Part shown: piece by piece, positions 1 through 23,753 of the stretch
Position numbering within the stretch: the first letter of the stretch is position 1
Layout of the letters: each line of letters begins with the position of its first letter
Source: a virus
Length of the DNA: 24,297 nucleotides
Virus record (IMG/VR): IMGVR_UViG_3300049008_000021
Location: 1 to 24,297 of that record
Strand: one strand, 5' to 3'
The notes under the pieces: generated by a model
Told to the model about the DNA's origin: nothing
Seen by the model: the letters and a program-made list of their open reading frames with translations, nothing else
The model's database searches: none
Position numbers and translations under genes: made by a program

Positions 1-101
1 ACTTAGGAATATACTACTATAACATAAGAGAGCTTAATACACTATATAGTTAGCTACCCCTAGGCTATACCTTAGTAACTGCCTTAGAGTCACTAGCGGG
101 G

Positions 102-132
102 GGCCTCCCTATTCTTTAAGTGTGAGGGATTG
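102..132 (-). promoter_or_regulatory. Candidate phage RNA polymerase promoter (T3-like motif), copy 1
   Basis: The minus strand reads CCCTCACACTTAAAGAA and then TAGGGAGG. The 16-nt core (112-127) is identical to the copy at 1523-1538 and resembles the T3 promoter core CCCTCACTAAAGGGAGA with a small insertion. The likely +1 is the G after TTAAA. It points left, out of the window. TCCCT and AGGGA around it could also pair. Identity as a promoter is inferred. Confidence 0.45.
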
Positions 133-218
133 TACCTTAACTCCCTATCTTCCGAACACCTCTCTAACTTACATAAGTATTAGTGTACAACTAAAGGTGT
201 AATTCCGAGATTATAAGC

Positions 219-252
219 AAAAAAAAAAAGTGTAAAGGTGTTCCGCCAACAC
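219..252 (-). terminator. Possible terminator after the 57-residue membrane protein
   Basis: On the minus strand a short hairpin (GTGTT, loop GGCGG, AACAC) is followed after eight bases by eleven T. It lies 36 nt downstream of the stop codon of the gene at 288-461. The gap between stem and T-tract is longer than in a classical intrinsic terminator, so strength is uncertain. Confidence 0.4.
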
Positions 253-287
253 TAACCCAATAGGGCTCATGTTGACAGAGAGCTAGG

Positions 288-461
288 TTATAGTCCGAAG
301 TAGAACCAGAATATGTAAGTTAATGCTATCCAGCCTCTAGTCTTTTGGAACGTAGTAAGCTGGAATGGTGTGAAGCTTTCAGTTCTTCTGTTGTCCTTTT
401 TATGTTCATTCGCAATAATAGACACTGTTATGACAAAGACAATCCAAGCTAAATAAATCAT
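288..461 (-). CDS. Small membrane protein, 57 residues
   Basis: The start ATG is preceded by AAGGG at good spacing. The product opens with a hydrophobic stretch (residues 2-17, LAWIVFVITVSIIA), has a charged middle (HKKDNRR, about 20-26), and a second aromatic, hydrophobic segment at the C-terminus (about 44-57, ending FWFYFGL). This predicts one or two membrane segments. It is the last gene before the left gene-free end and has a T-rich terminator-like site behind it. No family is recognised. Small two-segment proteins in phages can be holins or superinfection-exclusion proteins, but nothing here decides that. Confidence 0.65.
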   Translation of the reverse strand: MIYLAWIVFVITVSIIANEHKKDNRRTESFTPFQLTTFQKTRGWIALTYIFWFYFGL

Positions 462-543
462 TGTTATCCCTTAGAAGTTAAACCAAGCCAGACAAGCCCA
501 AGAAGTGTACCTATACATATGCCTTGTATAAATTGAAGAAACT

Positions 544-828
544 CTACCACTGCCTGAGTTCTAATTGTGAACTACAAATCCAAGAAAGCCCTATCTTTAC
601 CATAGGCACGTTTAGTGTGTGTATTACATCAGTCACAACACCTACCTCTAGGCCGTTACGCATTGCTGTAGCTCCAGGAACCCAGTCAGGTAGCAACTCA
701 ACCATAACAACAGGTGTAGGTCTTTCCACCATGTATATCTTAGAGCAACCTGGAAGGCTTACTAATAAGTGTGTCGCAGACTTGCCTACAACATTGTAGT
801 TGATATTGTTCAATAAGATAGTACCCAT
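544..828 (-). CDS. Hypothetical protein, 94 residues
   Basis: Starts at ATG with an AGAGAT sequence upstream, directly after the strong terminator at 851-902, so it must be transcribed by read-through or by a promoter I do not see. The centre contains MVELLPDWVPGATAMRNG, and Val/Ile-rich beta-prone sequence follows. There is no signal peptide or clear membrane segment. A similarly long reading frame exists on the opposite strand (524-799), but all other genes run on the minus strand and this frame has the better start context. Function unknown. Confidence 0.6.
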   Translation of the reverse strand: MGTILLNNINYNVVGKSATHLLVSLPGCSKIYMVERPTPVVMVELLPDWVPGATAMRNGLEVGVVTDVIHTLNVPMVKIGLSWICSSQLELRQW

Positions 829-850
829 TTAATAATCTCTATGTTTGTGT

Positions 851-902
851 AAAAAAAAAAAGGCAGTGAACACAAACCTCTCAAGGTCTATATTCACTGC
901 CT
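851..902 (-). terminator. Strong intrinsic terminator
   Basis: On the minus strand AGGCAGTGAA (902-893) pairs perfectly with TTCACTGCCT (870-861). A second small hairpin (ACCT, TGAG, AGGT) sits in the loop, and eleven T follow directly. It begins 6 nt after the stop codon of the 193-residue gene at 908-1489. This is the clearest intrinsic terminator in the window. Confidence 0.9.
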
Positions 903-907
903 GTAAC

Positions 908-1489
908 TTATGCTGCTGCTAAGCGTTTAGCTTCTTTCTCAGCGGCCATACGTTCACGGTACTCTACAAGCCCGTCACTGATGACACGCTTTTCAATACC
1001 TGCATTAAACGCTTCTTTCAATGCTTCAATGTTGGTGTTAATCCAATCGCTCACGTTAGTATTGTTCACCAGTGTAACAATCGCACCTTTGACCAACAGT
1101 TTTCTATCGTCATCCGACATACGCTTAGCTTCAAACTTAAAGCTAGACTTGACGGTTTCAGCGTGTGTTGCCAAGAAAGCTAAGTCTGGATTAGCTAATG
1201 CAACCAAGGCTTTAAGAGCACGTTCTAATTCGCCACGTTCTTTACGGCTTAGTTTACGAGCTTTACCAGCACCAAAGCAGTCAGCAATTGCGTCTTTGTT
1301 TTCAAACAAGAAGTCAGCCAAGTCAGCGGTTGCACCAGTTGATTCAGTTAGTTCAGTTAAAGCCGCCTGAACCATCGGATTACGTTGGAAATCGTCAGCC
1401 TCTTGTTGGCTGTCGAAATACATACGCTCACCATCAACAATGATTACGAATACTGCTTGTGCTTTTTGTGCTACTGGTTTAATTGACAT
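908..1489 (-). CDS. Hypothetical Ala-rich soluble protein, 193 residues
   Basis: Starts at ATG with AGAGAAA upstream. The N-terminal part has a beta-like stretch (AVFVIIVDGERMYFDS, about 13-28), followed by mostly helical, Ala/Lys/Glu-rich sequence that ends in a charged helix (EYRERMAAEKEAKRLAAA). No catalytic motif, membrane segment or signal peptide is seen. The gene stands alone between a T3-like promoter motif (1523-1538) and the strongest terminator in the window (851-902), so it is probably expressed strongly and separately, unlike the overlapping genes to its right. Its sequence is also more GC-rich by eye. Virion-associated or host-takeover roles are possible, but I do not recognise the family. 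Confidence 0.8.
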   Translation of the reverse strand: MSIKPVAQKAQAVFVIIVDGERMYFDSQQEADDFQRNPMVQAALTELTESTGATADLADFLFENKDAIADCFGAGKARKLSRKERGELERALKALVALANPDLAFLATHAETVKSSFKFEAKRMSDDDRKLLVKGAIVTLVNNTNVSDWINTNIEALKEAFNAGIEKRVISDGLVEYRERMAAEKEAKRLAAA

Positions 1490-1522
1490 GATATTTCTCT
1501 AGATTAATTAATGGTTGGGTAG

Positions 1523-1538
1523 TTCTTTAAGTGTGAGG
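1523..1538 (-). promoter_or_regulatory. Candidate phage RNA polymerase promoter (T3-like motif), copy 2
   Basis: The minus strand reads CCTCACACTTAAAGAA, identical over 16 nt to 112-127. It lies 33 nt upstream of the 193-residue gene. The 5' flank can form a hairpin with part of the motif (GTGAG, loop AAAATTAC, CTCAC; 1533-1550). Assignment to the phage polymerase is inferred from resemblance to the T3 promoter and from recurrence before an isolated gene. Confidence 0.5.
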
Positions 1539-1594
1539 TAATTTTCTCACGAACCGACAATCATCGAATCTAAGCACCCTTTTTGTGTACCTGA

Positions 1595-1648
1595 ACAGCG
1601 CAAATCGCTAGAGCGGCGAATACCTCAATGTGAGTTATCGGCGCGTGT
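1595..1648 (-). other. Candidate structured RNA element (three-way junction)
   Basis: Within the 211-nt gap between two genes, an outer stem (ACA-c-GCGC with GCGCTGT, one bulged C) encloses two small hairpins. One is CTCA, loop CAT, TGAG (1624-1634). The other is TCGC, 7-nt loop, GCGA (1605-1619). It resembles part of a cloverleaf but has no T-arm or acceptor pattern and is not a tRNA. Stems are short, so chance folding is possible. Confidence 0.3.
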
Positions 1649-1700
1649 AGCTCAAATTTTATGGCATAAATTTACTCCTTGGAAACCTGATTCGGTTAAG

Positions 1701-1901
1701 TTATACTCGAAACTCACCTTCTTTATGAAAGGCACGTTGAGCTCTTCTTTGTTCTTTTGCAACTCTATTCATAGCTTGCTTAGAGTATCTTGGATTGTCC
1801 AATGCAGACACTCCATTAAGAAACCCTGCATCTTGTGAGAATGTATTTCTCACTGCACGTCTAGCTGCTTCTTTATTACTGCATCCGTTTATAGCTTGCA
1901 T
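1701..1901 (-). CDS. Small basic protein, 66 residues
   Basis: Starts at ATG with GGAGAG upstream. The product is rich in Arg, Lys, Ala and Gln (for example AARRAVRNTFSQDAGF and KEQRRAQRAFHKEGEF) and is predicted to be mostly helical, which would suit nucleic acid or partner binding. It is the first gene after an SP6-like promoter motif and a long 5' hairpin (1920-1980), so it heads its own transcript. No family recognised. Confidence 0.65.
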   Translation of the reverse strand: MQAINGCSNKEAARRAVRNTFSQDAGFLNGVSALDNPRYSKQAMNRVAKEQRRAQRAFHKEGEFRV

Positions 1902-1919
1902 ATTAACTCTCCAATCTAA

Positions 1920-1961
1920 CTAAGGAACACCTCCAGCCAACACGGCTAAGAGGCTCCTTAG
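1920..1961 (-). promoter_or_regulatory. Long 5' leader hairpin, RNase III-type
   Basis: On the minus strand CTAAGGA pairs with TCCTTAG, inner CCTC with GAGG, and innermost AGCC with GGCT around GTGTT. The hairpin starts about where transcripts from the adjoining promoter motif would start and ends about 18 nt before the ATG at 1901. T7-type phages place RNase III processing hairpins at such sites. That role here is inferred. Confidence 0.5.
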
Positions 1962-1980
1962 GTCTTTCTATATAAGATAC
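1961..1980 (-). promoter_or_regulatory. Candidate phage promoter (SP6-like motif), copy 3
   Basis: The minus strand reads GTATCTTATATAGAAAGACC. It matches the copies at 4733-4753 and 23767-23786 and resembles the SP6 core CACTATAGAAGAG. The likely +1 is the G of TATAG. A hairpin and a ribosome binding site follow. Confidence 0.5.
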
Positions 1981-1991
1981 CTCTGTTTGCG

Positions 1992-2213
1992 CTAACCTCC
2001 TCTAGCACTTTCCTCTTCAATGGTGTGTGGATGTAACTCCTTAGTAAAGGCTCTCTTAAAGTCTCCATCAAAGCGTACATAAATGCGCCTATCAAATCCT
2101 GTGAATCTGGTGTACATCACAAACTTAATCCACACCTTTATCACAGGAACCTTTAAGGATACAAAGTGAAGCACCTCATAGAGAACCTTCGAGTTGTTGT
2201 GTCGGTAAATCAT
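1992..2213 (-). CDS. Hypothetical small protein, 73 residues
   Basis: Start ATG overlaps the ligase stop codon (ATGA), so it is translationally coupled to the ligase. The N-terminus (MIYRHNNSKVLYEVLHFVSL) recalls small phage and bacterial proteins that open with YRH...YEV, such as the DUF1653 type, followed by beta-rich sequence with KVWIKFVMYTRF and RIYVRF. That likeness is weak. Basic overall, no membrane segment. It ends just upstream of the SP6-like promoter motif of the next unit. Confidence 0.6.
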   Translation of the reverse strand: MIYRHNNSKVLYEVLHFVSLKVPVIKVWIKFVMYTRFTGFDRRIYVRFDGDFKRAFTKELHPHTIEEESARGG

Positions 2214-3481
2214 TTAGCACCTTCCACAATGTAGGTTGTAGTGTCTGTAACAGTCTTGTCAGTTCTAAATGCAACAAACCTTGGCTCAAATAGGCTGTAG
2301 CCTTTTTTATCTGTGTGCATCACATCCTTGAACTTAACCTCAATAATCGCACCTAGGTAGTCTCTTTCGTTGTCCCAGATTTCCTGTCTAAGCCTATCAC
2401 TGAACCCAGACACAGCGACACTAAGCATTCTGTCATCTGTTTCACACAATAAAGAACCGAATGTGTCAGTGTTCTTTCCTGTACCTTCGATAAACTCTTT
2501 TACCCGTAATTCGCAGGTGAACTCTTTCTTCATTTTCCACTGCTTAGTGGATGTACCATCTAGCCATAAACCTAGTGGGTCTTTTAGGATAACACCTTCT
2601 CCACCTACACTTGTCTCACAGTCAAAGATTGTTCTCGCAGAAGACATTGTAAAAGCTACACTAGATTTCACAAGGTGTATGTGATTAAGACTAAGTAATG
2701 ATAGTCTATCTTGAAGCTCCTCGAACCTTTCCTGGTAACTAATAGGTTTGTTTGAGTGTGATAAATCCCACACAACATACATAGGTGTTATGTCATCAGG
2801 GACAGGTGCATTGCTGTTAGCTACACCGTTACCTACCTCTCTGGGTAGCAACCCTGACGTAGCATGGTAGAATAGCAACTCACCATTCAATCTCTCACCT
2901 TCCTCAAGCAGAAGTTCAATCTCCTCTACAACCTGAGGAATGTAGAGGCTGTGCCCAGTCCTTGACCTCAGTCCCCACTCTAGCGTACCATCGCCATAAA
3001 GTCCATCACACTTAGTTTGAACATAGATACCGCCTGCCCAGTTGACTGTGTTGTCTTTCCACAGACTGCACCTCATATAAGGTACAGTGTTGATAAGACC
3101 AGGGCTTACTGTGTTCACCAACTTAATACCAAATCCAGCTTGAAAGTCTTTGGTAAGTATCTGGAACAACAAGTTAGAGCTTTCCTCAGTAAGCTGTACA
3201 CGTTCCCCCAAGATAGCTACTCTGGCTGCATCTCCTGTAAGTGTACGCTTGCTGAGTGAGTCGATGATTTCCCATGTAGTGTCATCGAATACTTTACTGC
3301 CGTGTTTAATTACTACAGGTAAGTTAGCAATACCATAGCTTGTTGTAGGGGTAAGTCCTGCTACAAGTACACGCTGCAAGTTTGCATTGTCAATAAAATC
3401 CTTCAAGATTTTCTTCTTGTTGGATGTCTTGGTGGTTTCGCGAATCAGACCAAATACTTCTGCTATTAAGTTACTATTCAT
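2210..3481 (-). CDS. lig: ATP-dependent DNA ligase (T4 type)
   Basis: Seals nicks in duplex DNA using ATP, joining Okazaki fragments and repaired ends. Motif I is KCDGLYGDG with the adenylated lysine at K157. Motif III is LNGELLF (about residue 199), motif IV is EGVILKDP, and motif V is around WKMKKEFTCELRV, followed by an OB-like C-terminal part. About 150 residues precede K157, including KDFQAGFGIKLVN...PGLI, which matches the N-terminal DNA-binding domain of T4 gp30 rather than the compact T7 ligase (359 residues, no such domain). At 423 residues it is shorter than T4 gp30 (487). The start ATG overlaps the previous gene by 8 nt. Ligase activity is well supported; choice of T4 over T7 lineage rests on the N-terminal region. 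Confidence 0.95.
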   Translation of the reverse strand: MNSNLIAEVFGLIRETTKTSNKKKILKDFIDNANLQRVLVAGLTPTTSYGIANLPVVIKHGSKVFDDTTWEIIDSLSKRTLTGDAARVAILGERVQLTEESSNLLFQILTKDFQAGFGIKLVNTVSPGLINTVPYMRCSLWKDNTVNWAGGIYVQTKCDGLYGDGTLEWGLRSRTGHSLYIPQVVEEIELLLEEGERLNGELLFYHATSGLLPREVGNGVANSNAPVPDDITPMYVVWDLSHSNKPISYQERFEELQDRLSLLSLNHIHLVKSSVAFTMSSARTIFDCETSVGGEGVILKDPLGLWLDGTSTKQWKMKKEFTCELRVKEFIEGTGKNTDTFGSLLCETDDRMLSVAVSGFSDRLRQEIWDNERDYLGAIIEVKFKDVMHTDKKGYSLFEPRFVAFRTDKTVTDTTTYIVEGAK

Positions 3482-3704
3482 TAAAGTCCTTCACAAAGTT
3501 AGGTATTCTTTCTTGGGTACCTACGAACACTACATCTGCATCGTGCATTATATAGTGTGTAGCGTTGTATGTGTTATCAAAGCACTTCTTGAACTCATTT
3601 TTCTCATAACTACAATAAGCCTCCATAACCTTCTTTCTTGCTTCCAGGTCTATAGTGTGTACATGGAGATTTTTCTGTGACAGAAGTTCTAATAATACAT
3701 TCAT
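3474..3704 (-). CDS. Hypothetical protein, 76 residues
   Basis: Start ATG overlaps the previous stop codon (ATGA), and the end overlaps the ligase start by 8 nt, so it is embedded in the ligase operon. The sequence is mixed helix with charged residues (EARKKVMEAYCSYEKNEFKK) followed by a short beta-like stretch (DADVVFVG). No family, signal or metal site recognised. Confidence 0.65.
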   Translation of the reverse strand: MNVLLELLSQKNLHVHTIDLEARKKVMEAYCSYEKNEFKKCFDNTYNATHYIMHDADVVFVGTQERIPNFVKDFNE

Positions 3705-3955
3705 AATCGTTTCTGACCTTTAGTTAAAACCCATGGAATATCAAGTGAGCATCTAGTACACCTTTTTAGATTTATGCTACTAAACCTAGCAAGCGATGTT
3801 GATAGGCACTTAGGGCAGAACTTTGTAGTTCCATCTACAATGATGTTGTGTATTGCTAATAACTTGTCTCTGGGTAACTCAGACAAATCTATTGCAGCAA
3901 TCTGTTCAGCAAGCATATTATCTGGAGTATCCTTGAGAGGTTCAGACTGTGTCAC
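3701..3955 (-). CDS. Small zinc-ribbon protein, 84 residues
   Basis: Initiates at GTG (3955-3953), preceded by GGAGG six bases upstream. The N-terminal half is acidic and helical. The C-terminal half carries two knuckles, CPKC and CTRC, separated by 16 residues, which is typical of a zinc ribbon. Such small zinc ribbons in phages often bind nucleic acid or a polymerase subunit, but no specific family is recognised. Overlaps its neighbours by 14 and 4 nt. Confidence 0.75.
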   Translation of the reverse strand: MTQSEPLKDTPDNMLAEQIAAIDLSELPRDKLLAIHNIIVDGTTKFCPKCLSTSLARFSSINLKRCTRCSLDIPWVLTKGQKRL

Positions 3956-4343
3956 TATGTACCTCCACGAACATTACATCAATAAGGTCTTCTCTCTTTT
4001 CACCGAAGCAGACCTTCTTTGTTGTACAGCCGTTTAAAACATCATTAAAGAAACATCCACTACAATCAAAGGTTGTCTCAGGTACAGCTATTAAAGACTT
4101 CCCTTCGTATGTAAATACTACATTAAGTTCGTGGTATCCACCAAGGTCTTCTATTTCTTCCCACATCAGACCTTTGTTGACACCCTCTTTGTCTGTGAAT
4201 ACACAACACTTAGCCTTTAATGAAACTTTGTATGTATGCAGTTTGAACTTAGATACAGTCTCTCCTCGTATTTGCCATATAGGTTCCATCAGCTTTCTAA
4301 TCTTGAACAGTTTGTCCAAGTCTTTCTCTCTTAGTTGAGTCAT
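3942..4343 (-). CDS. Hypothetical protein with C-terminal Cys cluster, 133 residues
   Basis: Start ATG follows AAGGA and overlaps the previous stop codon (ATGA). The first 90 residues look like alternating beta strands and helix without a known motif. Near the C-terminus CSGCFFNDVLNGCTTKKVCF gives a CxxCxF-x(n)-C-x(4)-C pattern, similar to the Cys cluster of the 64-residue protein at 14453-14647. This pattern occurs in many small phage proteins and probably binds a metal. Function unknown. Confidence 0.7.
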   Translation of the reverse strand: MTQLREKDLDKLFKIRKLMEPIWQIRGETVSKFKLHTYKVSLKAKCCVFTDKEGVNKGLMWEEIEDLGGYHELNVVFTYEGKSLIAVPETTFDCSGCFFNDVLNGCTTKKVCFGEKREDLIDVMFVEVHSDTV

Positions 4344-4675
4344 TTGATTTCCTTCAAGAAGATTATGTCAGTGCCTTTAATTTCATAAGGAAGTCTTTCA
4401 TACAACACACTATCTAAAAGAACCCTGTTCATAGCTACTTTGTGCAAGTATGTGAAATGTCCGCTGTGATTAAAAGGGCCTATTAAGCAGTCCTTATTAG
4501 TTTTAAACTTCCCAAGTAATGTGTAGCCTTTTTGGACAATCCCTGGGAAGTCTCTAACAAATAACACAGGCCTTACAAACTCTTCTGTCTCCAGAAAGAT
4601 TACCTTGTATCCTTCTAAATCGTCCATCCATATTGCCTGTATAGGATTCAATCTTGCTGCTGCTCTTCTTGACAT
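4340..4675 (-). CDS. Hypothetical protein, 111 residues
   Basis: Starts at ATG behind a near-ideal AGGAGG and is the first gene after an SP6-like promoter motif and a 5' hairpin (4692-4753). The N-terminus is basic (MSRRAAARLNPIQAIW). Mixed alpha/beta sequence follows (EGYKVIFLE, RPVLFVRDFPG). No catalytic motif or membrane segment is recognised. Its leading position suggests it is well expressed along with the downstream Cys-rich, zinc-ribbon and ligase genes. Confidence 0.7.
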   Translation of the reverse strand: MSRRAAARLNPIQAIWMDDLEGYKVIFLETEEFVRPVLFVRDFPGIVQKGYTLLGKFKTNKDCLIGPFNHSGHFTYLHKVAMNRVLLDSVLYERLPYEIKGTDIIFLKEIK

Positions 4676-4691
4676 ACATTACCTCCTAATC

Positions 4692-4734
4692 CCTAGAGAA
4701 CACATCAAACTGATATAGCTAGATGCTCTCTAGG
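4692..4734 (-). promoter_or_regulatory. 5' leader hairpin, RNase III-type
   Basis: On the minus strand CCTAGAGA pairs with TCTCTAGG, and inner GCATC pairs with GATGT after a small bulge. It sits immediately downstream of the predicted +1 and ends about 14 nt before the ATG at 4675. It has the same layout as the hairpin at 1920-1961. Confidence 0.5.
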
Positions 4735-4753
4735 TTCTTTCTGTATAAGGTTG
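4733..4753 (-). promoter_or_regulatory. Candidate phage promoter (SP6-like motif), copy 2
   Basis: The minus strand reads CAACCTTATACAGAAAGAAC, sharing CTTATAYAGAAAGA with 1961-1980 and CTTATACAGAAGA-type sequence with 23767-23786. It lies 5' of a hairpin and of the AGGAGG-led gene at 4340-4675. Confidence 0.5.
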
Positions 4754-4757
4754 TTAC

Positions 4758-4916
4758 TTAAACGCAACCTCTAGTTTGATGGATTGTGTGTGATTTGGAC
4801 TCAACCCTAATACAACCATTTCCCGTCACATATACGATAGCTATTTGCACAAGCGTCGCAATTACAAGACCAACACATACTAACTCGAGTATACTCCATA
4901 CAATCTTTAACCACAT
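4758..4916 (-). CDS. Small single-pass membrane protein, 52 residues
   Basis: The frame is open further upstream (to 4988), but that part lies inside the NrdJb-like gene. The ATG at 4916 overlaps that gene's stop by about 10 nt and gives a sensible membrane protein. It starts MWLKIVWSILELVCVGL, continues hydrophobic to about residue 30, and ends in a polar, Cys-containing tail. No strong ribosome binding site is visible, so expression would rely on translational coupling. A small exclusion or holin-like protein is possible but not shown. Confidence 0.45.
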   Translation of the reverse strand: MWLKIVWSILELVCVGLVIATLVQIAIVYVTGNGCIRVESKSHTIHQTRGCV

Positions 4917-5536
4917 TTTGAATACCCACAACTGGTACAAGTTAAACAACCGTCCATTAACACAAGCTGCTCTTTGCACTCTGGACAAGGGTTGGTGATA
5001 ATAGGCTCTTCACCTTCTAACACAACTGTTGGTACACTCTTATCTCTACCATAAGGTACTGCCATAATAGCAGGCATCACTGTCTTACGCTCAATACCAG
5101 AGTTTAGATGCTCTTCAAGAATGTCCCCTATCTCAGCTTCAAAGCTATTAAACCTTTTACGCTTACCACCAGGATAACACCGCTTACTTGTATAAGGCCC
5201 AGAGGGGTCGAACACCTGCTTCAACTCCTCAGCTATAAACAGGATGTCACCACCTTTTCTGAACACAGCAGATAGCACTCTACAAAGTGCGACCATACGA
5301 GATGCTGCTACACCTTTGCTGTTTATGAAGATTTCATAAGGGTGTTTAACACCATTTAACACTATGTCATTTATTGTGACATAGAAAGCACATTCAGAGT
5401 TGCTCGGTCGTGTTTTGTATGTAGCACCTAGAAGTACCTCAGGTCGTTCTATGTGCTCGCCCATAACTTCAACCTTTACAGTACTCTCTCCTTGCGCCAG
5501 GACTTTGTATCCGATTATCTTCTTATCTACTTTCAA
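4907..5536 (-). CDS. NrdJb-like TSCPD-domain protein (class II ribonucleotide reductase C-terminal part)
   Basis: The 209 residues match the separate C-terminal subunit of split B12-dependent ribonucleotide reductases. GATYKTRP (37-44), FYVTINDI (51-58), PYEIFINSK (66-74), a region around SAVFRKGGD (89-97), EELKQVFDP (103-111) and EIGDILEEHL (135-144) follow the TSCPD domain. The C-terminal zinc site has CPEC (184-187), C197, C200, C203 and GYSKCG at the end. Start is TTG (5536-5534), with AGAGG six bases upstream; the N-terminal residues before the first internal Met look conserved (KKIIGYKVL). In Pseudomonas NrdJb acts with NrdJa, but no catalytic subunit is in this window. Role here is uncertain: it may act with a host or distant phage reductase, or independently. 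Confidence 0.85.
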   Translation of the reverse strand: MKVDKKIIGYKVLAQGESTVKVEVMGEHIERPEVLLGATYKTRPSNSECAFYVTINDIVLNGVKHPYEIFINSKGVAASRMVALCRVLSAVFRKGGDILFIAEELKQVFDPSGPYTSKRCYPGGKRKRFNSFEAEIGDILEEHLNSGIERKTVMPAIMAVPYGRDKSVPTVVLEGEEPIITNPCPECKEQLVLMDGCLTCTSCGYSKCG

Positions 5537-6137
5537 CTGCTGCCTCTCTTGTTCTGAATAGTTTATCTCTCTGCCACAATATGCAGTGCTTAGTTGATTG
5601 TAAATCGAACATCAACTTTCTTGTTATAAACAAGCCTTTATAGTAAAGAACCTCTCCATTGAATGGCACTTTCACAGGCTCGTTTGCAAAGGCGTATGTA
5701 GAGTGGAAGCTCCAGGAAGGTAAATTAACTTCCCACTTACTACTGAAAGGTTGCAATCTGATAACCTTTCTAAGAGGGTTGCTCTTGTGAGCCTTCATCA
5801 TATCAGCGTGTTTGTTTCTAACAACCAAGTCAGTCGTAAGTAACAGGCTTATATCACCCAGTGGAACCCACTTGTTTCTTTCCCACTTTACCCACTGGTT
5901 ATCCACTGCATCGTAGCCGTCTAAATATACAGTTGTCTTAAGAGACGCCAGTTCGGCATCTATTAGCCTACACAATTCATCTACTCTAACACAAGTATCT
6001 AAAGATGTTATTGTGTCTCTTGTAAAGGTGTAAGAGACACCTTGAATCTCAGTGATTACTGAAAACCTTATATCGTCTAGTACCTCTGCACACCTTAAGT
6101 ATGCCTGCATTAAGAATTGCTTTGTAAAGTCTTTCAT
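5523..6137 (-). CDS. Hypothetical protein, 204 residues
   Basis: Starts at ATG with AGAGA upstream, 2 nt after the previous stop, and overlaps the NrdJb-like gene by 14 nt. No motif is recognised. The first 80 residues look helical with several Asp/Glu (VRVDELCRLIDAELASL). A Trp-rich stretch follows (NQWVKWERNKWVPLGD, about 99-114), then mixed beta sequence with further aromatic residues (LPSWSFHSTYAF). No membrane segment or signal peptide. Its coupling to the NrdJb-like gene is the only functional clue. Confidence 0.75.
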   Translation of the reverse strand: MKDFTKQFLMQAYLRCAEVLDDIRFSVITEIQGVSYTFTRDTITSLDTCVRVDELCRLIDAELASLKTTVYLDGYDAVDNQWVKWERNKWVPLGDISLLLTTDLVVRNKHADMMKAHKSNPLRKVIRLQPFSSKWEVNLPSWSFHSTYAFANEPVKVPFNGEVLYYKGLFITRKLMFDLQSTKHCILWQRDKLFRTREAAVESR

Positions 6138-6139
6138 TA

Positions 6140-6382
6140 TTATCTCTTATTTGTATTGAAGTGTGCGTATTTAGACACTAGAGTTGATTTGTGAATTAAT
6201 CTTACTATAACATCTTCTGAATTAGGTTCGGAGTTGTCACAGGCAAATAGAAAGGTAGCATTGTCTGGAACATCTTCGCAGTCGAAAGGGATTTGCTTAG
6301 TCCCGTTACGCCATATTTGTCCAGCACTCAATCCTTCAGTGTTACATAAGGTAACGCCAGTGTTGAAGTAAAAAGTTTTCAT
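6140..6382 (-). CDS. Hypothetical protein, 80 residues
   Basis: Starts at ATG with AGGA five bases upstream. Contains AGQIWRNGTKQIPFD followed by an acidic stretch (CEDVPDNATFLFACDNSEPNSEDV) and a basic end. Likely a small beta-rich soluble protein. Upstream the minus strand holds a palindromic CTATGAGGCCTCTTATAG that includes a CTTATAG core, possibly a weak promoter or processing site. No family recognised. Confidence 0.65.
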   Translation of the reverse strand: MKTFYFNTGVTLCNTEGLSAGQIWRNGTKQIPFDCEDVPDNATFLFACDNSEPNSEDVIVRLIHKSTLVSKYAHFNTNKR

Positions 6383-6433
6383 TGGAGTCCTATAAGAGGC
6401 CTCATAGAGATATCTAAGAAGCCTTAGTTGAAG

Positions 6434-6652
6434 TTATACCTTACAGGTGTTTATAAAGTGTGCTGCGTCGTCAAGCAAGACGAAGAGTTCACTATCGGTA
6501 TCAAGTCCTGCTTGTGCCTTGATTAGGTTTTTGTGTAAATCGCTGGCAGTTTGTAGTAACTCTGCTTTACTGTTAGCTCTTCTAGCTACGTCAAGTGCTT
6601 CGTTTAGTCTATAGCCAAGGTCACTTGTTGAAGCCTTGTGTTGAATTTTCAT
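6434..6652 (-). CDS. Small helical protein, 72 residues
   Basis: The frame opens earlier (6679), but AAGGAG lies five bases before the ATG at 6652, so that start is chosen. The sequence is almost entirely helical and soluble (YRLNEALDVARRANSKAELL, then DLHKNLIKAQAGLDTD). It looks like a small helical bundle. It is the first gene after the 246-nt gene-free stretch. Function unknown. Confidence 0.7.
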   Translation of the reverse strand: MKIQHKASTSDLGYRLNEALDVARRANSKAELLQTASDLHKNLIKAQAGLDTDSELFVLLDDAAHFINTCKV

Positions 6653-6898
6653 ACTATCTCCTTCTTGTCTGGTAAACACTATCTAGGAGAACCCTATAAT
6701 AGCTTACTAGACTAACATTAAACTTTACTATCTCTAACTTGATAACCTCCAAATTTCATGGCTTCTTAGAATCGTCACAGCGGCATTTTCAGGTATCAAC
6801 CGATGAACTGTGACACTAAATTTTTATCGTTTAGTCAGCGGTACTCAGTTCTCCAGAATCGGTATTTGTGTCGATTGATTCTGAGAATTTAGCACAAA
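6653..6898. other. Gene-free structured stretch inside the replication region
   Basis: This is the longest gap between genes in the interior. It is AT-rich and contains two inverted repeats: GTCACAG with CTGTGAC (6774-6814, 27-nt loop with inner CGG/CCG), and TTCTC-GAATC with GATTC-GAGAA (6849-6887). A third hairpin (about 6682-6705) includes TTATAGGG. There is no T-tract. It could be a replication origin, a promoter and processing region, or a non-coding RNA; the sequence alone does not decide. Confidence 0.45.
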
Positions 6899-7339
6899 TT
6901 ACACCGATATGGAATCCGCACCTTTATTAGCTAGTACATCAGCTCTGTCATTACCTTTGTTGCCAGAGTGGCCTTTCACCTTAACATACTCAACATGGTA
7001 ATACTGATTGAGTCTGTCCAGTTCTTGCCACAGGTCAACATTCTTAACAGGCTTCTTTGTAGATGTCTTCCAGCCAGATTTCTTCCAAGACTCTATCCAT
7101 GTTGTAATCCCATTTAATACATAAGCACTGTCTGTGTGAACCTTGATAGGACATCTTCGAGTTAGTGCTTGTAGAGCTTTGATTACTGCCATAAGCTCCA
7201 TTCTGTTGTTTGTGGTAAGCGGTTCTCCTCCAAAGATTTCTTTGGTGTTTCCTTTGTATTCCAGTGAAGCACCCCAGCCACCTACTCCAGGATTCCCACG
7301 GCAAGCTCCATCTGTGTATATCGTTACATAGTCTATCAC
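6899..7339 (-). CDS. rnhA: Ribonuclease HI
   Basis: Degrades RNA in RNA:DNA hybrids and so removes primers during replication. At 146 residues it has the full family length. The active site is complete and falls at the E. coli numbering: D10 ([11 protein letters not shown]), E48 (NNRMEL), D70 (VHTDSAYV), H124 ([11 protein letters not shown]) and D134. The start codon is GTG (7339-7337), preceded by GGAGGAG, and overlaps the upstream stop as TAGTG. T7 itself uses the gp6 exonuclease for primer removal; this phage has both enzymes. The gene-free stretch follows its stop codon. Confidence 0.97.
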
Positions 7340-7500
7340 TAATGCTCCTCCGCTTCGCCTTGTTTAAATGCAACGTACTGTTGGAGCTCCTCTTGATAAA
7401 CCTGAGCTTCATCATCACTGAAACCTAGGTCTGAAAAGATATTAGTACCTGCTTTGGTTATGTGGCGAACTTCTGTGTCAATCTCTTCTTCTTCTTTCAT
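7339..7500 (-). CDS. Mini protein resembling the N-terminus of XRE/HigA-type antitoxins, 53 residues
   Basis: An ATG at 7500 opens a 53-codon frame ending TAG, which overlaps the GTG start of RNase HI by one base. The segment [19 protein letters not shown] matches the N-terminal arm found in many XRE-family antitoxin-like regulators (TPAGGNVFADLGF..EEA). The helix-turn-helix that normally follows is absent: the protein ends in an acidic tail (QGEAEEH). Spacing of 8 nt from the helicase stop and 1-nt overlap with rnhA argue that it is translated. It could be a decoy, a dimerisation-only fragment or a relic. Confidence 0.7.
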
Positions 7501-7508
7501 ACTTATAC

Positions 7509-9170
7509 CTATAAAGATGTTACTGGATTATTTGCATCGTACTTCTTAGGTTCTTCCTTAGGCTTAGGTGCAAAACTCTCAAGCATTTTATACCTTCCAG
7601 TCGGATAGTCATAGATAGCTGGTATAACGAAGCCAGTGTCTCCTGTCTCTCTGGCCTTCAATACAGAGATGTTCATAGTTCTTCTGACTGTATCATCTTC
7701 TGCGGAAGAGTCTCTAGCGAAGCCTATAATGTCAGCACATATCTGTTTAATACTACCTGACCCTTTTACATCATCCATTGAAGGCATTACACCTTCTTCA
7801 AACGAACGTGAGCCGTTAGGTGTTTTACGCAAGTGGCTTACTAAACCTATCCACACAGAAAACTGTGTAACAACCCTAAGTAAGTCGTTCATCACCTTAT
7901 CTATAGCTTCGTTTCCTGTTAGTGTACCTGCACCTTCTGACACAAGTATTGTTATGTGGTCAACAAATAGATACTTACACCCAGATAAAGCTAGATATTC
8001 AAGCTTTGCTATCAAGCTTAAGTCGTCAACAGAACCTTGATGGTCAACAAGTATAATCCTATCGTCACCAAATAACCTATCAAAGCCTACTTGTAGTTCA
8101 TCAATTGGGAGTTTGTGTACAGACTCATTTACATTCAGTGCCATACTTGCAAGCTTTCTGGCAGTCTTCTTAGGCAGCTCTTCCAAGGAGACAACACCTA
8201 TCTTGTCAGTAGATGTTTCAATGATGTTGATAATCTCTTCCTTTAACAGTGTAGACTTACCGCTACCAGTTCCTGACACAAATAGCACTATCTCACCTTC
8301 ACGCTTTCCAAGGAGTCTCTTATTAACACCTCCTAGACACTTAGCGTAAGGATGTGCTATCTTGTCTTTGTCATCGACGATTGCAGCCCATATCTCTTTG
8401 CTGGTGATAATCCCAGAAGGTATGTATTTACCAGCGTTAAATACAGCCTGCATCAAGGCTTCGTGTCCTAGTTGCACTAAGCAGTCGCTAGGGTCTTTTA
8501 CAGTGAGCACAGGAAGCCTCACCTTGTCTATACCTATGATAGCAATAGCCTTAGCCTGGCACTTCAAACCTGCTTCATCCTGGTCTAGAAAGAGAATAAC
8601 CTCATCAAATGACCTAATCCATTCTCTAGCTTCTAATAATGAAGCATCCATAGCTGAACTTGATAAAGCTACCACAGGGTAAAATCTTTGATACCTTGTG
8701 TACGAAGCCTGTGCTACACTTAAACAATCAAGCTCACCTTCACAGATAATAAGCTTACGTCCACCAGCGGGGAACAGTTCTTGTCCAAACAGAGCTTTAG
8801 ATTTACCTACCCAACTAAACTCTTTAGGTAATCTCCTCACCTTGTAAGCCGCACTGCTATCATAAGGGTAGTAGTGGGTATCTATCTCCCCATTACCTCC
8901 GTAACTAACCTTACACTTATAAAAGGCTACAACCTCCTTCTTTATACGCCTGTCTTGAAACCCCCTATCTCCAGGGTACCCATGAATATCTTCCACAGTC
9001 TCTCTTGAATAAGATGATGTAGTTGTTGGAGTGAATACTGAAACTCCCTCACTCCCTGCTTTAGTGGCTTTACTGCAACTGAAACAGAAGCTAGAGCCAT
9101 CATCGTATAGTGTTCTTGCATCGCTACTTCCACAAGGACAAGGAAGGTGTTGCTGTGATACGTTTGCCAT
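7509..9170 (-). CDS. DNA primase-helicase (T7 gp4 type)
   Basis: Bifunctional replication enzyme that unwinds DNA and makes primers. Domains in order: zinc-binding domain with C11, C13, C29, C32 (LPCPCGSSDA ... FCFSC; CxC rather than the CxxC of T7); TOPRIM primase with CEGELD (143-148) and FLDQDEAG (194-201, acidic D196 and D198); helicase with Walker A GTGSGKST (300-307), VSLEE (328-332) carrying the catalytic Glu, Walker B-like YLFVDH (400-405), and a late SHLRK...GSGSIKQ motif. At 553 residues it is close to T7 gp4 (566). ATG is preceded by AAGAGGT. A hairpin terminator-like site lies just upstream, so a separate promoter or read-through must serve it. Confidence 0.97.
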   Translation of the reverse strand: MANVSQQHLPCPCGSSDARTLYDDGSSFCFSCSKATKAGSEGVSVFTPTTTSSYSRETVEDIHGYPGDRGFQDRRIKKEVVAFYKCKVSYGGNGEIDTHYYPYDSSAAYKVRRLPKEFSWVGKSKALFGQELFPAGGRKLIICEGELDCLSVAQASYTRYQRFYPVVALSSSAMDASLLEAREWIRSFDEVILFLDQDEAGLKCQAKAIAIIGIDKVRLPVLTVKDPSDCLVQLGHEALMQAVFNAGKYIPSGIITSKEIWAAIVDDKDKIAHPYAKCLGGVNKRLLGKREGEIVLFVSGTGSGKSTLLKEEIINIIETSTDKIGVVSLEELPKKTARKLASMALNVNESVHKLPIDELQVGFDRLFGDDRIILVDHQGSVDDLSLIAKLEYLALSGCKYLFVDHITILVSEGAGTLTGNEAIDKVMNDLLRVVTQFSVWIGLVSHLRKTPNGSRSFEEGVMPSMDDVKGSGSIKQICADIIGFARDSSAEDDTVRRTMNISVLKARETGDTGFVIPAIYDYPTGRYKMLESFAPKPKEEPKKYDANNPVTSL

Positions 9171-9873: not shown

Positions 9874-10329
9874 TTATGTGTTAAATTTAGCTAAACGCTC
9901 AATGTGACTAGCTGTTCTGTGTTCTTTGCAACCCCAAGAGATTTCCTCAATGCGCTTATTGAGCCAGCACTGTTTATAAGGAATATCAAGGAAACATAGT
10001 GACCAAGTTTCAGCATAGTTTAATCCACTCTTGGTCTTGTACTGCTCAACGCAAGTGAACTCCCATTCAGAGTGCGAAGTCTTTTCCATCCACTTTAAAA
10101 CCTTTTCAGATGAGCTAGTGTAGGATTTCCAAGCAGAAGTCACACCAGTGCGTCCTCTATAGCTCTTCTTGCCTAAGTACATTGCACCTGTAGGTAAGTG
10201 CTTCATTACATAGATGAAGCCTTCAAACTCTGCTCCACCCATTTGTTCAGGAAAGTTCCACTGGCCGTTATCGTGGATGTTCTCCACAGTCATTAAGACT
10301 GGACCTTTGTAAGGCTTAAGCTTTGCCAT
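9874..10329 (-). CDS. GIY-YIG-like endonuclease
   Basis: The 151 residues contain GFIYVMKHLPTGAMYLGKKS (37-56), the variant GIY...YIG pair (FIY at 38-40, YLG at 51-53), then KSYRGR with the expected Arg, WKSYTSSS (67-74), and NYAETWS with a Glu (E107) at the usual catalytic position, then CWLNKR with an Asn. These match small phage GIY-YIG family proteins. It probably cuts DNA, either for host genome breakdown, recombination or mobility; the target is unknown. Start ATG has AGAGGCGAAG upstream and overlaps the previous gene by 14 nt. No T7 endonuclease I homologue was recognised in the window. Confidence 0.8.
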   Translation of the reverse strand: MAKLKPYKGPVLMTVENIHDNGQWNFPEQMGGAEFEGFIYVMKHLPTGAMYLGKKSYRGRTGVTSAWKSYTSSSEKVLKWMEKTSHSEWEFTCVEQYKTKSGLNYAETWSLCFLDIPYKQCWLNKRIEEISWGCKEHRTASHIERLAKFNT

Positions 10330-11358: not shown

Positions 11359-12211
11359 AGTCTAATCCTAGTAACTCTCTTGCCAAAGGCCACTCCTCAA
11401 AAGAGAAGTAATCACATATATGGCGTTGTATGTGTATAAGCTTTCCATTTGCTAGCAAATAGTTAGCCCAATCTTTTTCACCATGAACATTATAATAGGC
11501 TTCAATAACAGCCATCTGAAACTCTTCATGTGTTGTACACCTTTCTGTTAGTTTAGCTGCCTTTACAGGACCATGTAAGCGTAACCCAGGAATACAGTCT
11601 GTACTATCTCCCATTATTAGTTGTTGATAGTAAAGTGTCATTGCCTCTAATTCAGACACCACGCTGATTGACTCTTCCTTAGGATGTAGGTGGTTTCCAG
11701 GAATACATCTTAGGTCCTTATCGCCAGTGCAGATTACATAGTCTTTACCAGCCCATTTAGCCTCCTCTGCCCATATACGAACATAATCATCTGTTTCACG
11801 ACCTTCACACAGAACTGCGTAACCGTGCATCACGGATAGAGTCTTTAGTGCAGGAATTACTTTGTAGTCCAAAGGATTAGAGCTTTTATTACGGCGACTG
11901 TGTTTATATCCACAAATAGTTTTACCCTCACTATCCCGCAAGATAGGGTACGTCAAGTTACGGTAGTTTGTAGAACCACCTACACCCATAAGTAACTCAG
12001 TGCAGAACACCGAAGCTTGTAACCGCTTGATACGATTCTCGAAGATACTCCAACACTGTTTAAGGTAATCCACATTCTCAGCGTCTGTGTAAACCTTATC
12101 TGCCTTGCCTGTTGTCTGGAACTCAGGTGTTATCTTGAATACTTCCTTGTCTTCACGAGGAGGACAGCTATAATAGGCAATCATGTCCCCGTCAATAATT
12201 AAAACAGTCAT
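11351..12211 (-). CDS. 5'-3' exonuclease (T7 gp6 type)
   Basis: Removes nucleotides from 5' ends of duplex DNA and RNA:DNA; in T7 it removes primers and supplies nucleotides from host DNA. The metal-binding acidic residues of the FEN/PIN-like nuclease fold are present: LIIDGDM (D7, D9), CEGRETDDYV (135-144), CTGDKDL (161-167) and MGDSTDCIPG (200-209), the last followed by a helix-hairpin-helix-like segment (LRLHGPVKAAKL). At 286 residues it is close to T7 gp6 (300). Start overlaps the upstream homing endonuclease stop as ATGA; the ribosome binding site is weak. Confidence 0.92.
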   Translation of the reverse strand: MTVLIIDGDMIAYYSCPPREDKEVFKITPEFQTTGKADKVYTDAENVDYLKQCWSIFENRIKRLQASVFCTELLMGVGGSTNYRNLTYPILRDSEGKTICGYKHSRRNKSSNPLDYKVIPALKTLSVMHGYAVLCEGRETDDYVRIWAEEAKWAGKDYVICTGDKDLRCIPGNHLHPKEESISVVSELEAMTLYYQQLIMGDSTDCIPGLRLHGPVKAAKLTERCTTHEEFQMAVIEAYYNVHGEKDWANYLLANGKLIHIQRHICDYFSFEEWPLARELLGLDYD

Positions 12212-12972
12212 AGAGGTACGTCCATAGAAACAGGTTCAAGGTTGAATTCTACTCTCTTTACATTCAGAGCAGCAACTGCTTCATAGGCATCAGTGAAATA
12301 ACCTGAACGCCATCTTACACCACTAAGCGTTACAGCAGCTCTCCACTTACCTTTACTACTATCAAAGCTTATTCCTTTTATTCCAGAAGTAGATGTGCTG
12401 TAAGGTGTTGTTTCACTCTTAGCTAGAGCGTCTTCCAAAGAATAGCCTCTACTAAGCCTAGCTCGCAATACATTATCAGGGATTCCAGAGTTTAAAGCTT
12501 CTGTAGCTATAGAATAACCTCTGTCCTTTGCTATTTGTGTATTATTAACCTGCTCAGTAAAGGTTGCCCATCTGCAATTAGATGGTTCGTAATTACCATC
12601 TACATCCTTTCTATCTAAAGATTGCTTATCAGAAGGAAGTTCTCCCATATCTTCTAGGAAGTTAGTAAATGAATCCAGCCATTGAGCGCATACAGAGATT
12701 CCTCTCCCTCCGTAGTTAGCATTGCCTAGGTCGCTGCATCTACGCTTCATATCATACCACGCCTTATAGGTGGCAGGATATGTATGACTGTCTGTTCTTT
12801 TTAACAAGTTACTACAATTTACACACATAGTTGACTTGCCTGTAGTAAGGTCACCTATTCTAACTTCCTTCTCTAAACCACAAGCGCATCTAGCTAGCCA
12901 TGTTATACCTCCTATATCTGGAGGATTTATTAAAACCCATGCACCGAAAACTTCACCGATTTCATGTCTCAT
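12208..12972 (-). CDS. Free-standing HNH homing endonuclease with AP2 domain
   Basis: The frame is open from 12996, but GGAGGAAGC lies directly before the ATG at 12972, so that start is used (254 residues). Order: an N-terminal zinc ribbon (CACG ... CVNC); the HNH core with YKAWYDMKRRC, YGGRGISVC, W..SF.NFL, SLDRKDVDGNYEPSNCRWAT and EQVNN; a middle DNA-binding-like linker; and a C-terminal AP2 domain (GIKGISFDSSKGKWRAAVTL through to EYRT-like YEAVAALNVKR). Such enzymes are selfish elements that cut unoccupied alleles and copy themselves. No intron is seen: both neighbours (5'-3' exonuclease and 281-residue gene) are intact and overlap it by 4 and 11 nt. Confidence 0.92.
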   Translation of the reverse strand: MRHEIGEVFGAWVLINPPDIGGITWLARCACGLEKEVRIGDLTTGKSTMCVNCSNLLKRTDSHTYPATYKAWYDMKRRCSDLGNANYGGRGISVCAQWLDSFTNFLEDMGELPSDKQSLDRKDVDGNYEPSNCRWATFTEQVNNTQIAKDRGYSIATEALNSGIPDNVLRARLSRGYSLEDALAKSETTPYSTSTSGIKGISFDSSKGKWRAAVTLSGVRWRSGYFTDAYEAVAALNVKRVEFNLEPVSMDVPL

Positions 12973-13807
12973 TGCTTCCTCCAAACATATTATCAACTAC
13001 ACCTTGAATATCAGAATAGTCTGTTAGACCGTCCTTCTTGTTAAGTTCTGCTATAACCTTTATTGCCTGCTCTTCTGTAATGTCTGAGTTATTAGCAATG
13101 TCCTCTGCTGACCACAAGTCCACATAGATGTCAGGAAAAGCTATCTCATCAATGGTGGTAATCTTGTCTTTGAGCAGTAAAGCTACATCTATGAACACAG
13201 CTGAATACAACCCAGATTCAATTGCCTTCTTTCCGTTTAGTACACTTGTGACATATACTTGACTATTTCGCGCTGCTTCTCTCTCTTCCAAGAAACACTG
13301 ACCACCTTGTCTTGCATCAGACTCTGACTTATAACCTCCACAAGACCCCCACCAACTGCCATCACACTCCTCATAAATCCACTCCCAGCTTTCACCGTTC
13401 AGGTATCTATTGTAGTCCTGAACTTGGTGTTCAAGCTCTTCTTCGCATAATGTATTACTATAAATGTAACCCACTTGTCCTGAATCCCAAGGACAGCTAA
13501 AGGCTGACGTTGAGACAGTCAACCCTGAGTGGTCTAACAAGAATAGTGGAAGAATGCTGACTGGGGCTTCATCTTTCATGATAGCTTCCTTCATAGTCTC
13601 CCATCCAGACACATCCTCAGAACTCTTTAGGTAATCAAAGCTTTGTCTGTCACCTAGAGTGTGTCTCTCATGAAGGCACAGCATCACAGACTCTTCGGAT
13701 GCAAAGTCTCTAGGATTCCCTGGTTCCTTTTCCAAGCGAACTACTAAGTTGCTTGCGTCTGTCACTTTTTGTGTAGCATCTTTAAAGATTTCATCAATAC
13801 TTTTCAT
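12962..13807 (-). CDS. Conserved phage protein with DHSG/CPWDSGQVG motif plus extra C-terminal module
   Basis: The 281 residues carry a signature I recognise from many tailed phages without known function: LHERHTLGDR, then LPLFLLDHSGLTVSTSAFSC and PWDSGQVGYIY (about 86-118), then YNRYLNGESWEWIYEE and WGSCGGYKSE. After the family's usual end, about 80 further residues (SGLYSAVFIDVALLLKD, LWSAEDI, DITEEQAIKVIAEL) form a module shared with the proteins at 9226-9864 and 10316-10651. Start ATG lies in an ATGA overlap with the upstream gene and has GGAGCT before it. Confidence 0.8.
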   Translation of the reverse strand: MKSIDEIFKDATQKVTDASNLVVRLEKEPGNPRDFASEESVMLCLHERHTLGDRQSFDYLKSSEDVSGWETMKEAIMKDEAPVSILPLFLLDHSGLTVSTSAFSCPWDSGQVGYIYSNTLCEEELEHQVQDYNRYLNGESWEWIYEECDGSWWGSCGGYKSESDARQGGQCFLEEREAARNSQVYVTSVLNGKKAIESGLYSAVFIDVALLLKDKITTIDEIAFPDIYVDLWSAEDIANNSDITEEQAIKVIAELNKKDGLTDYSDIQGVVDNMFGGSNET

Positions 13808-18805: not shown

Positions 18806-19039
18806 CTAATAAGTAACTATCAGGTACAGTCCATCTTGTGTTACACACAGTCTACTTTCGCAGGTAAATGTAGCAACAATATTACCTGTTAATGGTCTTT
18901 CTGTAACTATTCTCAAAGGCCCACCGTAGACAGTTTCCAGTGGAGCTCTCCAGCTTATCTCTAGGACATCCTTAACCTCTTTTACTAGTAACCAGTATCT
19001 GCTGCCTGCGGCTTGTCTAAGCGTTTCATACTCAATCAT
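18806..19039 (-). CDS. Hypothetical protein, 77 residues, paralogue of its neighbour
   Basis: ATG follows AGGGATTAAGA and overlaps the previous gene by 8 nt. Residues 4-42 align with the adjacent gene (19032-19268): TLR, SRY, KEVK versus KELK, SWRAPLE versus PWRAPLQ, and GGPL occur in the same order and nearly the same spacing. C-terminal half is beta-rich (NIVATFTCESRLCV). No known family. The pair comes from a tandem duplication. Confidence 0.75.
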   Translation of the reverse strand: MIEYETLRQAAGSRYWLLVKEVKDVLEISWRAPLETVYGGPLRIVTERPLTGNIVATFTCESRLCVTQDGLYLIVTY

Positions 19040-19268
19040 TCTTAATCCCTAGTTTAATTCCATCTGATAACAGGTAGACTGAGCTTCCACAAGTAAGGGT
19101 ATGTGATGCACAGAATCCCTCGTAACATCCCTCTTTAACTTCAAGAGGGCCTCCTGTTTCTTCTTGCAATGGAGCCCTCCAAGGGAGGCCTAAGATTGTT
19201 TTCAGCTCCTTTGCTTGTTTGTTGTACCGACTGTCTCTTAAAGCTCGTAATGTACTAAATAGCAACAT
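19032..19268 (-). CDS. Hypothetical protein, 78 residues, paralogue of its neighbour
   Basis: ATG follows TAAGGAAAATAT, 9 nt after the RNA polymerase stop. Shares TLR...SRY...KELKTILGLPWRAPLQEE and GGPLEV with 18806-19039. The C-terminal half (HTLTCGSSVYLLSDGIKLG) also keeps a TCxS pattern in common. Function unknown. Position right behind RNA polymerase, where T7 has small host-takeover genes, is suggestive only. Confidence 0.75.
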   Translation of the reverse strand: MLLFSTLRALRDSRYNKQAKELKTILGLPWRAPLQEETGGPLEVKEGCYEGFCASHTLTCGSSVYLLSDGIKLGIKND

Positions 19269-21497: not shown

Positions 21498-21682
21498 ACT
21501 GGACGCTCCTGTAAAATAGGAGGCACTTCTTCTCTAACACACCCTACTGACCTTCCTCTTGAAGTGTAGTAAGAGCCACCTACAAGTCGCGGATTGTGCT
21601 CGTACCATGCCCAAATCCCGTTAGAATCTCTAGCTACAAACTTAGCCCACTCAGGGGCCTTGCTCCAATCCATTATACTCAT
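21494..21682 (-). CDS. Small protein with Trp-rich motif, 62 residues
   Basis: ATG follows GAGAGGCTAAT; the end overlaps the RNA polymerase GTG start. Most of the protein is one copy of a recurring motif: WSKAPEWAKFVARD (6-19), then G22, W24, W26-Y27-E28 and P31. The same spacing is found in genes at 21954-22628, 23049-23411 and 23414-23734. The motif, W-x2-A-P-[ED]-W-A...D-x2-G-x-W-x-WYE-x2-P, occurs in other phage proteins as far as I recall, with no known role. The tail (REEVPPILQERP) is polar. Confidence 0.75.
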   Translation of the reverse strand: MSIMDWSKAPEWAKFVARDSNGIWAWYEHNPRLVGGSYYTSRGRSVGCVREEVPPILQERPV

Positions 21683-23411: not shown

Positions 23412-23413
23412 AA

Positions 23414-23734: not shown

Positions 23735-23753
23735 ATACACCTCGCTTGTTATA

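Follow-up and report, generated by a model that had tools for sequence, protein, structure and literature searches.

Gene content of the phage fragment

The window, by which we mean the whole stretch of 24,297 nucleotides analysed here, is identical in extent to its viral record (24,297 bp), and no structural genes were recognised in it; the genome of the window phage is therefore incomplete. The fragment holds a T7-like early/replication module on the minus strand, comprising genes for a single-subunit RNA polymerase, SSB, family A DNA polymerase, exonuclease, primase-helicase, RNase H and ligase. The following features bear on the nrdJb gene that lies within this module:

7509-9170, minus strand: primase-helicase, after which a catalytic ribonucleotide reductase (RNR) comes in most relatives of the module
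6899-7339, minus strand: RNase H, between primase and nrdJb
5543-5548, minus strand: GAGAGG, resembling a Shine-Dalgarno sequence, six bases ahead of the TTG start of nrdJb (from the sequence)
4907-5536, minus strand: orphan nrdJb, encoding an NrdJb / cysteine-rich domain protein of 209 aa with a TTG start (Pfam, PHROG, NCBIfam, tree)
5093-5437, minus strand: TSCPD (IscU-like) domain, about residues 34-148 (Pfam, AF2 model, structural matches)
4910-4987, minus strand: six-cysteine zinc-ribbon / redox tail, residues 184-209 (alignment; cysteine roles from equivalents in PMC5704485)
2210-3481, minus strand: ATP-dependent DNA ligase, which bounds on the downstream side the slot in which relatives have an RNR

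Identity of the NrdJb protein

The open frame of nrdJb is intact, and its first 14 bases are shared with the end of the preceding ORF (5523-6137). Three profile matches define the product: (i) Pfam TSCPD matches residues 47-144 (E 7e-8, better than the curated cut-off), (ii) the phage family phrog_23565 (199 positions) covers residues 2-209 (E 2e-29) and (iii) NCBIfam PRK08665, a B12-dependent RNR, matches with its C-terminal end only (profile positions 593-759, 167 positions). The window protein is therefore the small, non-catalytic part of a class II RNR, and a Pfam search found no catalytic barrel domain (PF02867) in it. The TSCPD / IscU-like domain is followed, in one small polypeptide, by the zinc-ribbon tail with C184, C187, C197, C200, C203 and C208, which reproduce the spacing CxxC-x9-CxxCxxC-x4/5-C (PMC5704485). 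These profile matches and the six cysteines bear out the original prediction of an NrdJb/TSCPD protein with a cysteine-rich C-terminal zinc site. The TTG start that it proposed gains support from the GAGAGG motif and from the viral relatives, nearly all of which have ATG at the matching position and share the motif K-[IV]-x-x-K-I.

The AF2 model reaches a block pLDDT of 81-95 over residues 31-140 (about 90 for the first domain) and is fair in the tail (about 85); the linker is disordered. Structural matches include IscU/SufU at Z 5.2-5.5, tied with unrelated folds; these weak matches are in line with the IscU-like fold predicted for the TSCPD domain in PMC9669993. Neither a Foldseek comparison of the model with the PDB (E <= 0.001) nor a PDB sequence search with the NrdJb profile returned a match.

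The function of the equivalent parts is known from two bacterial enzymes. Electron transfer with TCEP in the S. nassauensis NrdJd needs all six cysteines, four of which are proposed zinc ligands and two a proposed redox pair (PMC5704485). Transferred by alignment, C184, C187, C200 and C203 are proposed to be of the zinc type in the window protein, and C197 and C208 to be the redox pair. In P. aeruginosa, dithiol exchange is carried out by NrdJb, which binds close to the cofactor cavity of NrdJa and is essential in vivo (PMC4520616).

Conservation and divergence

Each of the six cysteines of the tail is present in 80 or 81 of 81 viral rows. Among 74 columns that are at least 95% conserved in bacterial NrdJb, 61 are kept in the window protein and 63 in at least 90% of the orphans. 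The median dN/dS is about 0.04 among 13 equal-length orphan relatives, a set that leaves out the window protein as too distant; judged from these sequence comparisons, the viral relatives are, where measured, under strong purifying selection.

The window protein, which is 39-45% identical to bacterial NrdJb, has diverged further. Its TSCPD domain carries the extra cysteines C49, C85 and C120 at positions where relatives have His, Thr or a gap (Cys replaces His49 and Thr85), Gly114 and Pro130 are altered, and a conserved Trp is missing between residues 80 and 81. With its odd cysteines and missing Trp, the protein may have become suited to an unusual partner. Owing to this divergence (long branch in the tree, lost Trp, changed residues), it is uncertain how well it fits an ordinary NrdJa.

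A role unrelated to RNR, for instance in nucleic-acid binding or an Fe-S/IscU-like function, could draw on the IscU-like fold among the weak structural matches, on the zinc ribbon and on the extra C49, C85 and C120, but the protein shares its conserved columns and relay cysteines with bacterial NrdJb encoded near NrdJa and sits among nucleotide-synthesis genes. We regard such a role as the least probable reading of all. Nucleic-acid binding by the zinc ribbon in particular, which the original prediction had listed as a separate role, found no support and was rejected, because in NrdJ this tail has been characterised as relaying electrons (PMC5704485).

The orphan state in the window and the RNR slot of its module relatives

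No PF02867 catalytic RNR was found in the window record even at E 10, and the same search detects 11 control genomes. The statement that no NrdJa-like gene is present in the 24 kb thus holds, for a record that is a fragment; since only 24.3 kb are covered, this absence says little about the whole genome.

Relatives of the replication module indicate where an RNR would be expected. The nearest cultured relatives of the window primase are those of roseophages CRP-7 and DSS3_VP1 (45%), and 80 viral contigs carry a primase 45-58% identical to it, many of them syntenic with the window. A catalytic RNR is present in 27 of 34 records of these module relatives, and 25 of these 27 have it downstream of the primase at a distance of no more than 4.3 kb; examples are the monomeric class II type (TIGR02505) and a class I NrdA+NrdB pair. 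Between primase and ligase, the window holds RNase H, small genes and NrdJb alone in place of the RNR of its relatives. NrdJb was found in none of the 34 module relatives, by a profile search that had no positive control of its own but is of the type that detects NrdJb in a Methylomonas metagenome-assembled genome (MAG). When window positions 1-7509 are set against loci L009, L017, L026 and L037, the post-primase stretch is seen to hold differing RNR types among related phages.

The orphan state among viral relatives of NrdJb

Scans of viral contigs for close relatives, one with the window NrdJb alone and one with the RNA polymerase, gave nothing that could be confirmed. An alignment-based scan, for which an alignment with the ends of fused phage NrdJ was needed, yielded 80 viral loci. 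All 80 encode NrdJb as a standalone ORF of 185-254 aa, and a catalytic NrdJ lies near it in only two (fetched loci of up to 6 kb on each side). The catalytic barrel PF02867 (class I/II) is missing from 47 of 50 whole viral records with NrdJb. Three records have a catalytic RNR, which is adjacent in two small records and about 100 kb away in one 220-kb record; in the latter (G028, locus L155), nrdJb and nrdJa represent a scattered split RNR. Class III RNR as a hidden partner was found in none of 34 viral records.

Direct terminal repeats mark eight of the NrdJb records without RNR, 36-86 kb in size, as probably complete:

G007: 85.7 kb, terminal repeat 141 bp
G003: 79.2 kb, terminal repeat 127 bp
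G031: 63.7 kb, terminal repeat 127 bp
G020: 57.8 kb, terminal repeat 127 bp
G033: 37.5 kb, terminal repeat 91 bp
G012: 64.5 kb, terminal repeat 272 bp, 98.5%
G001: 41.5 kb, terminal repeat 252 bp, 98.8%
G014: 36.3 kb, terminal repeat 240 bp, 99.2%

The exact overlaps of 91-141 bp look like the assembly k-mers of circularised contigs. G033 encodes portal, terminase, major head protein, DNA polymerase and primase, and G014 has matches to terminase, tape-measure and primase; their orphan nrdJb genes are at L292:13270-13842 (plus strand) and L289:10654-11223 (minus strand), respectively. In G001, G014, G024 and G033, NrdJb is the sole match shared with the window at E 1e-3, which shows that NrdJb occurs with unrelated replication modules. 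The orphan state described in the original prediction is hence real at the level of the family, given 47 of 50 whole records, including the eight with terminal repeats, that are devoid of a catalytic RNR.

An ordinary split enzyme, with nrdJa far from nrdJb in the part of the window phage genome beyond the 24.3-kb fragment, is nevertheless conceivable, as the record is a fragment and the 220-kb relative separates the two genes by about 100 kb. We consider it unlikely: the closed and other whole relatives argue against it, and so does the position of the RNR in the module relatives, where the window covers the corresponding stretch and has none.

The neighbourhood of the viral genes points to nucleotide synthesis. 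ThyX follows nrdJb co-directionally within about 3 kb downstream in 37 of the 80 viral loci and ThyA in another 9 (46/80 for both), with representatives of these identities checked by Pfam. In cultured phages, tblastn with two orphan NrdJb returned 40 and 47 records; the six regions that were opened encode fused NrdJ, the annotations listed carry the names of RNRs, and no standalone NrdJb was seen. Plasmid matches are mainly annotated fused NrdJ, plus one Aeromonas caviae record at 51%.

Bacterial relatives and a candidate host lineage

Species genomes gave at least 80 NrdJb loci when scanned, overwhelmingly gammaproteobacterial and many from methanotrophs; about seventy of these loci have an NrdJa-like catalytic gene listed within the fetched locus. 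The comparison with bacterial NrdJb that the original prediction had proposed as a check was made with a quick tree, in which six rows of phage-borne fused NrdJ served as the only outgroup. Viral and bacterial split NrdJb group together, apart from the fused phage NrdJ ends (97% SH-aLRT), and this places the viral proteins in the split-NrdJb clade. The main viral clade (98% support) includes L171, a locus from the Methylomonas MAG, and stands beside Methylococcales NrdJb with weak support; the window protein is placed, with weak support, among other long-branched, divergent viral proteins. The viral label changes six times on the tree, and at least three of these changes are forced by strong branches, so that nrdJb was probably taken up by viruses more than once.

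The tree also bears on whether the window protein serves a fused host NrdJ, one lacking the cysteine-rich domain, or another host RNR rather than a split NrdJa. After the split type, the closest relatives are the ends of fused NrdJ from phages and bacteria, and some NrdJd enzymes are without the cysteine-rich domain (PMC5704485). The window protein nevertheless falls within the split clade at 97%, and the separately expressed cysteine-rich domain failed to restore activity in vitro to a fused-type NrdJd lacking it (Loderer 2017, PMC5704485). A partner of this kind is accordingly very unlikely. The same failed rescue means that action in trans is known only for the natural split enzyme.

The contig bearing L171 was binned into the Methylomonas MAG and is phage-like, since its genes are up to 98% identical to those of viral contigs; it bears an orphan NrdJb. 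The MAG has one catalytic RNR, which is of the NrdJa type, and no class I small subunit (NrdB) was detected in it. It encodes three NrdJb, one of them on L171, and the copy in a 236-aa frame on contig C44 is probably the host's own. A phage in such a host would have to rely on NrdJa; the MAG represents a candidate host lineage for the relatives, not directly for the window phage. More broadly, the class I small subunit went undetected in 14 of 30 bacterial genomes with this NrdJb, several of which are incomplete assemblies.

A proposed model for NrdJb action in trans

We consider it probable, though well short of certain, that the gene encodes the NrdJb of a split class II RNR and that the phage uses it in trans with host NrdJa. 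The identity of the protein, its cysteines and gene context, the purifying selection and closed orphan genomes of its relatives, the split clade and a candidate NrdJa host lineage are observed in the window or in these relatives. From them we infer that NrdJb would bind host NrdJa and pass electrons to it for the benefit of the phage, and that the window phage genome would lack nrdJa. Because many unrelated phages carry NrdJb alone, these phages probably fit the host enzyme with a small subunit of their own. Phage NrdJb would dock near the rim of the cofactor cavity of the NrdJa dimer through its IscU-like TSCPD domain, and extra or phage-adapted NrdJb would increase dNTP production, or divert it, while phage DNA is being made, at a cost to the phage of 0.6 kb as compared to a whole RNR. 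The suggestion that the protein supplements a host NrdJa is the best supported of those originally offered, on account of the split clade, the six cysteines and the presence of L171 in a MAG with NrdJa and no detected class I RNR, whereas its action in trans is a matter of inference.

The benefit of extra NrdJb is not obvious, since bacteria with NrdJa already make NrdJb and a ratio of about 1:1 suffices in vitro (PMC4520616). Phage NrdJb might instead mainly alter the regulation of host NrdJa (oligomer state, dATP/dGTP feedback, choice of reductant) or compete with host NrdJb; regulation of host deoxynucleotide supply, which the original prediction had also offered, is conceivable. The cysteine-rich domain is required for the dATP/dGTP-induced higher oligomers of S. 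nassauensis NrdJd (PMC5704485), effectors tighten NrdJa-NrdJb binding in P. aeruginosa (PMC4520616), and the candidate hosts already have NrdJb. A pure binder or inhibitor would, however, have no need of the six conserved relay cysteines, and a replicating phage profits from dNTPs; we hold regulation as the main role to be improbable. A wider and speculative scenario, to which we give limited credence, is that phages of hosts with split class II RNR repeatedly took nrdJb alone and that phage NrdJb replaces host NrdJb on NrdJa, changing feedback control or reductant and so creating a phage-controlled RNR, which in the window phage would stand in the place of its relatives' RNR.

If supply in trans is correct, a phage with the electron-relay subunit alone depends on, and perhaps re-tunes, the B12-dependent catalytic subunit of its host. 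This would be a cheap way to raise the dNTP supply and would tie phage fitness to host NrdJa and vitamin B12. It raises the directly testable question of whether split class II RNRs are limited or regulated by their NrdJb, and of what use a split RNR is.

Relation to known systems

Whole ribonucleotide reductases are often brought by phages. RNRs of phages, RNRs of the split class II type and incomplete class I sets in phages are already known; we found no description of phage NrdJb without NrdJa in open-access full text. The window protein shares its two-domain build, six-cysteine tail and size class with NrdJb of the P. aeruginosa NrdJa+NrdJb enzyme (PMC4520616), and no cellular relatives nearer than bacterial split NrdJb were found. 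In contrast to these, which are mostly encoded near nrdJa, the window gene has no catalytic gene beside it and its product misses some invariant residues. Domain and cysteine pattern are also those of the cysteine-rich domain of fused, NrdJd-type class II RNR (PMC5704485). Among cultured phages, the closest matches come from fused NrdJ, at its C-terminal end and mostly in roseophages, where the domain joins the catalytic barrel, unlike the separate protein of the window.

Complete phage RNRs (NrdJm/RTPR; NrdA+NrdB) occupy the same post-primase place in relatives of the window phage but contain the catalytic barrel that the window NrdJb lacks; NrdJm never has the cysteine-rich domain (PMC5704485). 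Partial phage RNR sets, for example nrdHF or nrdH alone (PMC3653736), likewise supply part of an RNR system, although these are class Ib parts, unlike NrdJb, a word absent from that paper.

In databases, phrog_23565 is labelled 'ribonucleotide reductase', an annotation only, on a profile that matches the window protein over its full length, and BFVD holds 'ribonucleoside-diphosphate reductase' entries from uncultured Caudovirales that are short proteins of 136 and 184 aa. We found no description of the phrog_23565 or BFVD entries as orphan NrdJb without a partner. The RNR name in both resources is misleading, because such proteins cannot be a complete enzyme, and this matters for surveys in which these genes are tallied as ribonucleotide reductases of phages.

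Further observations on the window

Several other genes of the window have a notable distribution. The 193-aa protein at 908-1489 has no PHROG match, and homologues occur in 14 fetched loci of phages with related primases. The small protein just upstream of the primase (9874-10329) is conserved in 70 of 80 related loci; it matches phrog_447 ('NAD synthetase') and phrog_7363 ('homing endonuclease'), and the 'NAD synthetase' label looks wrong. A homing-type HNH endonuclease (12208-12996) adjoins the exonuclease, and genes like it occur in 17 orphan-NrdJb loci and in none of the fetched loci of primase relatives. Two adjacent small ORFs at 18806-19039 and 19032-19268 look like tandem duplicates (LPWRAPLQEETGGPL and ISWRAPLETVYGGPL). 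A motif resembling AP[DE]WAxYLA...G.W.WYE recurs in the small proteins at 21494-21682, 23049-23450 and 23414-23740, and this AP[DE]WAxYLA family is also present in unrelated phages with orphan NrdJb, for example in ORFs of L133.
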